From assembly GCF_900231835.1 (NCBI RefSeq), contig NZ_OCTN01000001.1, forward strand, positions 434,001 through 498,000: a DNA stretch of 64,000 nucleotides. The letters run 5' to 3'. Of the stretch, positions 31,312 to 62,531 are shown in pieces (positions within the stretch are counted from its first letter, which is position 1; each line of letters starts with the position of its first letter). Source of the stretch: Pontivivens marinum. GTDB taxonomy: Bacteria; Pseudomonadota; Alphaproteobacteria; Rhodobacterales; Rhodobacteraceae. Under the pieces are notes generated by a model. It did no database searches. It was not told the origin of the DNA and was given only the letters and a program-made list of their open reading frames with translations. The translations under genes and the position numbers were made by a program.

Positions 31312-31342
31312 TGTGATCACATGAAAAATTCGTGTGATCACA
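31312..31342. promoter_or_regulatory. Tandem TGTGATCACA palindromes upstream of sucC
   Basis: Two exact copies of the perfect palindrome TGTGATCACA at 31312-31321 and 31333-31342, centres 21 bases apart, so both fall on the same face of the helix. The same pair occurs before sdhC at 61968. They lie 185-215 bases before sucC and upstream of the best promoter candidate at 31389, a position that would suit an activator. Confidence 0.6.
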
Positions 31343-31388
31343 ATTGCGAAAATTTCACCCAACTTCCCCAATTCATACCGCAAATCAT

Positions 31389-31417
31389 TTGAAAAAACCG
31401 TTCAGCCACCATACCGT
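31389..31417 (+). promoter_or_regulatory. Candidate sucC promoter
   Basis: TTGAAA (31389-31394), 17-base spacer, TACCGT (31412-31417). The -35 is good, the -10 poor. It lies between the palindrome pair and sucC, leaving a leader of about 100 bases. Prediction only. Confidence 0.3.
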
Positions 31418-31526: not shown

Positions 31527-32720
31527 ATGAACATTCACGAGTATCAGGCCAAGCAACTGCTAAAGGCCTATGGCGCCCCCGTTTCCGACGGCCGCGTTGT
31601 GCTCAAGGCTGATGAAGCCAAGACAGCGGCTGGCGAACTCGACGGCCCATTGTGGGTTGTTAAGGCGCAGATCCACGCAGGTGGCCGCGGCAAGGGTTCC
31701 TTCAAGGAAGAGAGCGCTGGCGAAAAGGGCGGCGTCCGCCTCGCCCGTTCGGCTGAGGAAGCCGCTGATGAAGCGCACAAGATGCTGGGCCGCACATTGG
31801 TCACACATCAGACCGGCCCGGCAGGCAAGCAAGTAAACCGCATCTACATCGAGGACGGCTCGGATATCGAGCGTGAATTGTACCTCTCGATGCTGGTTGA
31901 CCGTGAAACCTCGCGCATCTCCTTCGTCTGCTCGACCGAGGGCGGCATGGACATCGAGGAAGTTGCTGCCTCCACCCCCGAGAAGATCATCAGCTTCTCC
32001 GTCGATCCGGCATCCGGCCTGTCCGGCTTCCACGGCCGCCGCGTCGCCTTCGCCCTCGGGCTTGAGGGCGGTCAGGTCAAGCAGTGCGTCAAACTCATCA
32101 ACCAGCTGTACAAGCTGTTCGTTGAGAAAGACCTCGAAATGCTCGAGATCAACCCGCTGATCGTCACCGACAAGGGTGACCTGAAATGTCTCGACTGCAA
32201 AATGGGCTTCGACGGCAACGCGCTGTATCGCCACTCCGACGTCATGGCCCTGCGCGATGAGACCGAGGAAGACGCCAAGGAACTGGCCGCGTCCAAGTTC
32301 GACCTGAACTACATCGCCCTCGACGGTGAAATCGGCTGCATGGTGAACGGCGCCGGTCTGGCCATGGCAACCATGGACATCATCAAGCTGTACGGCGCCG
32401 AGCCTGCAAACTTCCTCGACGTTGGTGGCGGTGCGACCAAGGAAAAGGTGACCGAGGCGTTCAAGATCATCACCTCCGATCCGCAGGTGAAGGGCATTCT
32501 GGTCAATATCTTCGGCGGCATCATGCGCTGCGACGTCATCGCCGAGGGCGTGATCGCCGCGGTTCAGGAGGTCGGCCTGCAAGTTCCGCTGGTTGTCCGT
32601 CTTGAGGGCACGAATGTCGAGAAGGGCAAGGAGATCATCAACACCTCCGGCCTCGCCGTCATCGCCGCCGATAACCTCGCCGACGCTGCTGAGAAAATCG
32701 TGAAGGCCGTCAAAGGCTAA
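31527..32720 (+). CDS. sucC: Succinyl-CoA synthetase beta subunit
   Basis: ADP/GDP-forming subunit of succinyl-CoA ligase in the TCA cycle. 397 residues. The ATP-grasp domain begins [19 protein letters not shown], with IEINPL near the centre and the C-terminal CoA-ligase domain ([30 protein letters not shown]). AAAGGA precedes the start. First gene of the suc operon; a hairpin-rich repeat separates it from sucD. Confidence 0.97.
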
Positions 32721-33762: not shown

Positions 33763-34524
33763 ATGCTGCTGTCGCACACTCATAAGCTCATCTTTCTCAA
33801 GACGCGAAAGAGCGCTTCAACCTCGGTTGAGATGCTGCTGGAATCGTTTTGCCGGAATGATGGCGCCGATGTGTTGGAACGCACTGCACAACGGATCAGC
33901 GATGCCGGCATTGTTGGCAGCAGACGCGACCTTAGCTGCGCTGATGACATATGGTGGAACCACATGCCTGCGCAGGATGTGCGCGATAATCTGCCCTGCG
34001 ATATCTGGAACAGCTACCTAAAAATCACCACCGTCAGAAACCCGTTTTCCGCGGTGCATTCGCTGTTCAACTACCACACGAAACGCAGCATACCGCGTGG
34101 ATTCATCGCGTTGCTGCTCTACAAATTGCGCTTTCGCCACTGGGTGCGCCGCCGCCTTCGCAAGGAATGGTTCGGCGATGAACATATCGTGTCAATAAAT
34201 GGACAACTGGTGATTGACCGCTTCGTGCATTTTGAGCATTTGGGCGAAGACTTGGCGGATTTGATCGCAGAACTTGACCTGCCGATCGACGCGACCACCT
34301 TGCCGCGGACGAAGATTTCTAAACAAGCGGGAATCGCTTACGATATGACTGACCTCTACGATACGCGCACTGCGGATATCGTGCGTGCGCGTTACAACTG
34401 GGCCTTTAACGGGTTGGGGTATTCTCCTCGGCTTGAGGATTCAGCCCTTCCACCCGCCCGATTTCAGCGCGCGGATAAATCACGGGTAGCCACTCCCGAT
34501 AGCCCCGCCCGGAGTTCGATATGA
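33763..34524 (+). CDS. Sulfotransferase-like protein in the suc operon
   Basis: 253 residues. The N-terminus (KLIFLKTRKSASTSVEMLLESF) matches the 5'-phosphosulfate loop of PAPS-dependent sulfotransferases, and TTVRNPFSAVHSLFNYH looks like the 3'-phosphate motif (RxPxxxxxS). A basic central stretch (HWVRRRLRKEW) and VDRFVHFEHL-type residues follow. No signal peptide. The acceptor is unknown, perhaps a surface glycan. It lies between sucD and sucA, and its stop overlaps the sucA start (ATGA), so it is translated with the OGDH complex although its function seems unrelated. Confidence 0.75.
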   Translation: MLLSHTHKLIFLKTRKSASTSVEMLLESFCRNDGADVLERTAQRISDAGIVGSRRDLSCADDIWWNHMPAQDVRDNLPCDIWNSYLKITTVRNPFSAVHSLFNYHTKRSIPRGFIALLLYKLRFRHWVRRRLRKEWFGDEHIVSINGQLVIDRFVHFEHLGEDLADLIAELDLPIDATTLPRTKISKQAGIAYDMTDLYDTRTADIVRARYNWAFNGLGYSPRLEDSALPPARFQRADKSRVATPDSPARSSI

Positions 34525-60163: not shown

Positions 60164-60715
60164 ATGTTCTTTGCCATCCTTATCCTCGGTGTTGCCCTGT
60201 GGTGGGCTGCACATTTGTTCAAACGCATCGCGCCTGATGCCCGCAGTAATATGGGGGATAAGGGGCGCGGGGTTATTGCCGCCTTGGTCGGGATATCGGT
60301 GCTGCTGATGATCGTCGGCTTTCGCGGGACGGAGTTCATCGCCGTCTGGTATCCGCCCGCATGGACCGTGCATCTGAACAACCTGATGATGCTGGGCGCC
60401 ATATTCCTATTGGGCGCAGGTCATTCAAAGGGCCGCGCCCGCACATGGTTTCGCCACCCTATGTTGATGGGCATTATCGTCTGGACGTCGGCACATTTGC
60501 TGGTCAACGGTGACCTCGCTGCGATAATCCTGTTTGGCGGTCTGGGCCTGTGGGCGCTGACCTCCATCGCGGTCATCAATCGGGCGGAGCCGGTTTGGCA
60601 ACGCCCCGAGGCCGGACCGGCCAAGGGCGACATCCGGCTGGTTGTGATCACACTCGTTATGTTTGCCGTCTTTACCGGCATTCACTCTCTCTTTGTCTCT
60701 CCATTTCCGGGGTAA
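60164..60715 (+). CDS. NnrU-like integral membrane protein
   Basis: 183 residues with about five membrane segments. HLFKRIAPDARSNMGDKGRG, NLMMLGAIFLLGAGHSKGRARTWFRHPML and WTSAHLLVNGDLAAIILFGGL match the NnrU domain. NnrU was first described beside nitric-oxide/nitrite reduction genes, but no such genes are here and its activity is unknown. It is related to isoprenylcysteine-methyltransferase-like membrane proteins. Between mcl2 and mch. Confidence 0.82.
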   Translation: MFFAILILGVALWWAAHLFKRIAPDARSNMGDKGRGVIAALVGISVLLMIVGFRGTEFIAVWYPPAWTVHLNNLMMLGAIFLLGAGHSKGRARTWFRHPMLMGIIVWTSAHLLVNGDLAAIILFGGLGLWALTSIAVINRAEPVWQRPEAGPAKGDIRLVVITLVMFAVFTGIHSLFVSPFPG

Positions 60716-61967: not shown

Positions 61968-61997
61968 TGTGATCACACCAAATATTTTGTGATCACA
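61968..61997. promoter_or_regulatory. Tandem TGTGATCACA palindromes upstream of sdhC
   Basis: Two exact copies at 61968-61977 and 61988-61997, centres 20 bases apart, the same pattern as before sucC. They lie 24-53 bases upstream of the -35 of the candidate sdh promoter and 18 bases after the mch stop, so sdhC is the likely target. Confidence 0.65.
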
Positions 61998-62050: not shown

Positions 62051-62147
62051 ACGCTTTGGCTTACGCTGGAACTGTTCTAGATTGCGCAGTGAATGGCCCG
62101 ACATTTGGGCCCGAACCTATATTGCCGTAACTTTCCTTGGAGGACCT

Positions 62148-62531
62148 ATGGCCGACGTGAACCGGGGCAACCGACCGCTTTCACCGCATTTGGGGATCTA
62201 TAAACCTCAGCTGACATCGCTCACCTCCATCCTGACACGGATCACCGGCAACGCATTGCTGCTGGCCGCGCTGATGATCGTATGGTGGTTCGTTGCACTG
62301 GCCAGCGGGCCAGAGGCATTCGCAACCGCAACATGGTGGATCACCTCCTTTGTTGGCGATCTGATCATGCTCGGGTCCGCATGGGCGCTGTGGTATCACA
62401 CGCTGGCCGGTATCCGTCACCTGTACTGGGATTCCGGTCGCGGGCTGGAAATGGAAACGGCCGAGAAGCTGGGCAAGGCGGTCATCATCGGTTCGTTCGT
62501 GCTGACCCTTCTGACAATCATCGTGGTTTGA
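62148..62531 (+). CDS. sdhC: Succinate dehydrogenase cytochrome b556 subunit
   Basis: 127 residues from the ATG at 62148 (GGAGG 5 bases upstream). NRPLSPHLGIYKPQLTSLTSILTRITG is the quinone-site start of SdhC, three membrane segments follow, and the haem ligand His lies in WYHTLAGIRHLYWD. Membrane anchor of complex II. First gene of sdhCDA(B). Confidence 0.94.
   Translation: MADVNRGNRPLSPHLGIYKPQLTSLTSILTRITGNALLLAALMIVWWFVALASGPEAFATATWWITSFVGDLIMLGSAWALWYHTLAGIRHLYWDSGRGLEMETAEKLGKAVIIGSFVLTLLTIIVV

Follow-up and report, generated by a model that had tools for sequence, protein, structure and literature searches.

The closest described system is the AkgR regulon of Rhodobacter sphaeroides. 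The palindrome GTGATCAC is identified, in the relevant text of one article, among the binding sites of the R. sphaeroides transcriptional activator AkgR (PMC6365646), and another gives sucCD, sdh and the 2-oxoglutarate dehydrogenase genes as predicted targets of the GntR regulator RSP_0981 (PMC4344238). The same palindrome is proposed for PS417_07240 of Pseudomonas simiae, a deoxyribonate regulator 32% identical to AkgR (PMC6365646), and CceR is a central carbon regulator with a demonstrated role in the glycolysis and gluconeogenesis of Paracoccus denitrificans (PMC11323563). According to these texts, motif, regulator and targets are already in print for R. sphaeroides. We take RSP_0981 to be AkgR. 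A literature search by TGTGATCACA, and by GTGATCAC together with GntR, did not find a pairing of sites, the original AkgR paper lying outside that search; the matches to TGTGATCACA were set aside, as their titles point to unrelated sequences, one of them a primer. Strict pairing and A/T patches phased at 10 bp may be undescribed.

Here we analyze a 64-kb stretch of the Pontivivens marinum genome (the window, always meant at its full length), in which two pairs of TGTGATCACA precede the TCA-cycle genes sucC and sdhC. As predicted from sequence comparison, both pairs very probably serve as operators for AkgR, an activator from the GntR/FCD family that acts on TCA-cycle genes. The preliminary description had put AkgR forward as a candidate, and the published motif and targets cited above agree with it. 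By this prediction, a regulon of TCA-cycle genes known from a single Rhodobacter species would reach across much of a large bacterial family, with exact, testable operators in a fixed geometry. That geometry opens to test how a GntR activator acts from well upstream of the -35, and the need for two dimers. The sites and the genes behind the pairs are as follows.

31312..31321, no strand: distal AkgR-type palindrome TGTGATCACA of the sucC pair; exact match, with the 21-bp spacing to its partner kept in relatives.
31333..31342, no strand: proximal AkgR-type palindrome TGTGATCACA of the sucC pair; exact match, kept in relatives.
31527..32720, plus strand: sucC, succinyl-CoA synthetase beta subunit, first gene of sucCD...sucA; Pfam ATP-grasp_2 and Ligase_CoA.
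60643..60652, no strand: lone TGTGATCACA in the 3' part of an NnrU-family gene; exact match, codons V-I-T.
61968..61977, no strand: distal AkgR-type palindrome TGTGATCACA of the sdhC pair; exact match, kept in relatives.
61988..61997, no strand: proximal AkgR-type palindrome TGTGATCACA of the sdhC pair; exact match, 20 bp from its partner.
62148..62531, plus strand: sdhC, succinate dehydrogenase cytochrome subunit; Pfam Sdh_cyt, with the ATG at 62148 after GGAGG by eye.

The gene calls for sucC, sucD and sdhC are upheld by Pfam. Two exact copies 21 bp apart (centre to centre) before sucC and two 20 bp apart before sdhC had been noted in the preliminary description, and all four are present where it placed them. 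It had also held the pairs hard to explain by chance, which the counts bear out: the window holds five exact TGTGATCACA, and 100 dinucleotide-preserving shuffles gave a mean of 0.07 and at most 1. The whole genome (3.73 Mb) has 10 copies. The genome scan that had been proposed, run for pairs with a spacer of 8–13 bp, returned only the two before sucC and sdhC, both inside the window. Because a crude scaling of the window shuffle rate predicts approximately 4 copies per genome, the six unpaired copies are near the chance number, and the signal is in the pairs, not in the single motif.

Five of the six unpaired copies lie in coding sequence or at a gene end: the copy at 60643, one at the end of a GST-like ORF, one in a SIS-like ORF and two in an aldehyde-dehydrogenase-like ORF (the last three names assigned by eye). 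The 60643 copy ends 267 bp ahead of the start of a mesaconyl-CoA-hydratase-like gene and was considered as its operator; this was rejected, given that the V-I-T reading frame favours a coding coincidence. One-mismatch sites occur at similar places in 2 of the 13 fetched regions having such a gene (L092 and L103), and the copy is probably a chance coding match. The sixth copy is intergenic, 216 bp before an AMP-binding enzyme of the acyl-CoA ligase type (locus L010, position 1501), and is a possible further AkgR target by prediction.

Across the family, the exact pair with an 8–13 bp spacer is found in 186 of 295 genomes. A class-wide scan of 385 genomes found it in six: four of the five family members and two of the 380 genomes outside the family (G308 and G669), both with 12-bp spacers and more than 1.5 kb away from any suc or sdh gene. 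Among 48 distinct pairs, taken from pair-selected loci and the window, 35 stand before sucC, 13 before sdhC and none elsewhere, with spacers of 11 bp in 44 and 10 bp in 4. The reversed pattern gave no match in the P. marinum genome, single or paired, no pair in the 295 family genomes and, among 30 genomes, 4 single sites versus 145 for the true pattern, a soft control since the reversed word contains CTAG, which is rare here (37 CTAG versus 493 GATC in the window).

Rates per promoter were taken from genomes G100–G129 only, chosen by handle number and not selected for the pair, with a sucC locus in 28 of 30 and an sdhA locus in 29 of 30 (the sucC-paralog loci L263 and L264 excluded). With at most two summed mismatches and a spacing searched over 10–60 bp, the pair occurs upstream of sucC in 25 of 28 genomes, every time at 21 bp, and upstream of sdhC in 22 of 29, at 21 bp in 20 and at 20 bp in 2. 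The 20-bp pair before sdhC in the window is hence the rarer spacing form. None of 11,400 shuffled upstream sequences, in which only base composition is preserved, carried a pair. Counting exact copies alone, the pair is found at 17 of 28 sucC and 5 of 29 sdhC loci. The scan of relatives that the preliminary description had called for therefore came out in its favour, and the pair layout is common to much of the family. In the genus mate G211 the exact pair was not found in the scan with 8–13 bp spacers. The relative G125 has 29 palindrome copies, three of them within 52 bp (G125:C6:303624-303675), a copy number that suggests either that its regulon is enlarged or that a second regulator shares the motif.

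Promoter positions were sought in a footprint of 58 sucC and 39 sdhC sequences aligned on the pair, some of them from pair-selected loci, with the following features in the window.

31322..31332, no strand: 11-bp spacer of the sucC pair with a central A/T tract; alignment of relatives.
31343..31388, plus strand: region between the sucC pair and promoter, with A/T patches approximately 10 bp apart in relatives; 58 sucC sequences.
31389..31394, plus strand: candidate sucC -35, TTGAAA; footprint of relatives.
31412..31417, plus strand: candidate sucC -10, TACCGT, 17 bp past the -35; weak, picked by eye at the place the footprint suggests.
62056..62061, plus strand: candidate sdhC -35, TTGGCT; footprint of 39 sdhC sequences.
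62078..62083, plus strand: candidate sdhC -10, TAGATT, 16 bp past the -35; footprint of relatives.

Within the spacer, the AT fraction is 0.75–0.89 at positions 3–8 (56 sucC pairs with 21-bp spacing). Counted from the proximal-site end, A/T-rich patches lie near +10, +21, +31 and +40 in both promoter sets, with an autocorrelation at lag 10 of 0.56 for sucC and 0.52 for sdhC (raw values without a shuffled baseline); the window's own 31343..31388 matches this pattern only in part, as judged by eye. In the sucC footprint a T-rich -35-like patch lies at +47 and a -10-like patch at approximately +70 from the proximal-site end, and in the sdhC footprint a G/T-rich -35-like patch lies at +59 and a -10-like patch at approximately +81. 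The distance from pair to promoter is therefore greater at sdhC than at sucC, by about one turn of the helix (10 to 12 bp). A consensus promoter scan reported no promoter at the sucC or sdhC places, so that the -35 and -10 assignments, made from the footprint, are weak; they would fit activator-dependent promoters. The preliminary description had placed both pairs upstream of candidate -35 boxes, and this stands as far as the footprint goes, with the -35 starting 47 or 59 bp past the pair, and finds no backing in the consensus scan.

An element CGTGAC...AAAA recurs in many sdhC leaders of relatives, approximately +55 to +76 after the pair; we take it as the -35 region, and it could alternatively be the site of another regulator. 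Both operons also contain an extra ORF, one between sucD and sucA (33763-34524) and one between sdhA and sdhB just past the window (L026 4819-5622). The first residues of each look sulfotransferase-like by eye, and Pfam gave no match for either.

The P. marinum genome has 15 FCD-domain genes. One of them is the predicted AkgR ortholog:

G000:C12:1006722-1007366: AkgR ortholog (L022/L107), GntR HTH plus FCD, a single gene in the P. marinum genome; Pfam and homolog search.

This gene lies 541 kb from sucC. A comparison of 20 fetched suc/sdh regions with all 15 FCD proteins turned up the L022 type alone. Its relatives stand near the suc operon in five of the 20, and four of these five carry a palindrome where the gene begins, exact in three and with a mismatch in one, the fifth start being cut off. 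Homologs of L022 were found in 274 of 295 family genomes (E below 1e-30). The preliminary description had proposed to match a regulator by co-occurrence, and the exact pair is present in 184 of the 274 genomes with the ortholog versus 2 of the 21 without (Fisher p 2e-7, which ignores shared descent; G264 is counted among the 21 by inference, as a missing handle). The 90 ortholog-bearing genomes without an exact pair are explained partly by single mismatches. Among G100–G129, the pair is present in all 24 genomes whose ortholog is close (E below 1e-55), and none of the three without a sucC pair (G101, G102 and G109) has a close ortholog. G114 has the pair and a weak ortholog match only (100% complete, in 320 contigs), and G256 and G264 have the pair without a clear ortholog, at a completeness of 93% and 77%.

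Among 80 genomes, selected mainly by size and checked for the sdhB neighbourhood, sdhB was found in 79, and the regulator lies within 3 kb of it in G026, G051, G091 and G175. G051 has seven contigs, and three small ones were tested with 6-kb pieces. Two of these pieces match plasmids of C. sphaeroides 2.4.1 at 100% identity, as they do plasmids in other C. sphaeroides records; the third piece gave no match. Because of these identities we take G051 to be Cereibacter sphaeroides 2.4.1 or a nearly identical strain. Its gene order runs sucA-sucD-sucC, mdh, a lyase, mesaconyl-CoA hydratase and sdhC-A-B, followed by the regulator facing sdhB, and its sdhC pair is exact, with one mismatch in the sucC pair. 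The 20 kb around suc and sdh yielded a single FCD-type gene, the GntR gene beside sdhB, and the P. marinum ortholog is 67% identical to it over 202 residues. From its place just beyond sdhB, and by gene order set against the tags RSP_0962 to RSP_0981 as given in the published text, this gene fits RSP_0981.

A palindrome also stands at the regulator's own gene in many relatives. In the best 80 of at least 591 regulator loci, which lean to one group, mainly Roseobacter, the own-gene site is present in all 80 (74 exact, 6 with one mismatch), and the whole 1.476 Mb of these 80 loci has 76 exact sites in total. It is found in 23 of the 30 loci closest to the window's protein. In the stretch that begins 250 or 300 bp before akgR and reaches 40 bp into the gene, no site was found in P. 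marinum, in the genus mate G211 (L108) or in C. sphaeroides, the best match having four mismatches. Because C. sphaeroides is also without a site at akgR, an own-gene site is not a defining feature of the AkgR regulon, and self-regulation is not general. In a tree of 35 regulator proteins, including one site-less row with its gene start cut off (L088), site-bearing and site-less genes are not separated, and well-supported branches force at least two changes. Taken with the pair kept at both promoters and its co-occurrence with the ortholog, the own-gene sites in relatives strengthen the case for AkgR.

Who else might bind the pair, or whether anything does, can be judged on the same data. That the pairs reflect chance, or a general sequence bias related to GATC, would suit the near-chance number of unpaired copies and the abundance of GATC in the window; the window shuffles and the fixed spacing before both operons in relatives already refute it, with the shuffled upstreams and the soft reversed-pattern control pointing the same way, and its probability is negligible. 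Neither a random scatter of the motif without a link to central metabolism nor a lack of conservation in relatives, the two outcomes that the preliminary description had named against itself, was seen. A regulator of the CRP/FNR type is suggested by TGTGA...TCACA, which resembles a pair of CRP half-sites. CRP halves are TGTGA and TCACA with 6 bp between them, and the halves here abut without a gap, so the TGTGA-N6-TCACA spacing is absent; the pair moreover co-occurs with a GntR gene and has a counterpart site at that gene, which makes a CRP/FNR-type protein highly improbable.

The remaining alternatives stay within the GntR/FCD family. A different member could bind the pair, the best being L016 (G000:C14:161794-162429), our first guess for AkgR: a relative at 57% identity or more is present in 88 of 100 family genomes, P. 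marinum included, and GntR proteins can share motifs, as the palindrome proposed for PS417_07240 at 32% identity to AkgR illustrates (PMC6365646). However, the L016 type was not found in the 20 fetched suc/sdh regions. Three genomes (G090, G033 and G061) have the pair and no L016 ortholog, with the L022 type matched in all three. Among the 15 FCD loci of P. marinum (approximately 3.4 kb each), a one-mismatch site occurs only in L014 and L017, with none in L016 and none in L022. L016 was rejected as AkgR on these grounds, and we consider binding by another such regulator quite unlikely. Many FCD regulators are repressors, and AkgR itself might bind sucC and sdhC as a repressor released by a ligand. 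This we also regard as unlikely, given that the text naming AkgR of R. sphaeroides describes it as a transcriptional activator (PMC6365646) and that the pair stands ahead of the footprint -35, not over it.

Under the preferred reading, activation by AkgR, each 10-bp palindrome would most likely take one AkgR dimer, and with centres 20 or 21 bp apart, that is, two helical turns, both dimers would bind along the same side of the DNA. The centre of the nearer dimer would fall approximately 51 bp before the -35 at sucC and approximately 63 bp before it at sdhC. At the promoters of sucCD-sucA and sdhC the paired dimers may then assist RNA polymerase, perhaps via the A/T patches phased at approximately 10 bp between pair and -35. 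In most relatives examined, the single site at the akgR start would probably limit akgR expression, and P. marinum has lost this copy. We infer from the sequence patterns that AkgR binds in P. marinum, that its dimers cooperate, that the sign is activating and that autorepression occurs in relatives. A more tentative idea, which we find possible and would not favour over its negation, is that the number and geometry of sites set the sign of AkgR: two palindromes two turns apart with phased A/T patches would form a composite activator module at sucC and sdhC (with the sdhC promoter about one turn farther), and a single palindrome at the akgR start would repress.

Compared with the known systems, the likeness to CceR lies in the regulation of central carbon metabolism; unlike AkgR, CceR belongs to the LacI family. 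PS417_07240 of P. simiae is like the regulator proposed here in being a GntR protein proposed at the palindrome GTGATCAC, whereas the published text places its palindrome at positions -47 to -40 of the regulator gene itself, and its pathway is different. From the R. sphaeroides AkgR regulon the present case differs by genus, within the same family, and by the place of akgR, which lies 541 kb from sucC here and beside sdhB there. Of the features of that regulon, a site at the regulator's own gene is missing in P. marinum, and the GTGATCAC core at the promoters, suc and sdh as targets, the ortholog and its co-occurrence with the pair are all found. The likeness to R. sphaeroides, so far as its regulon is described in the texts cited, thus includes the palindrome GTGATCAC, a GntR-family regulator with its ortholog present and the suc and sdh operons as targets, and extends to akgR itself, which stands without a site in both genomes.
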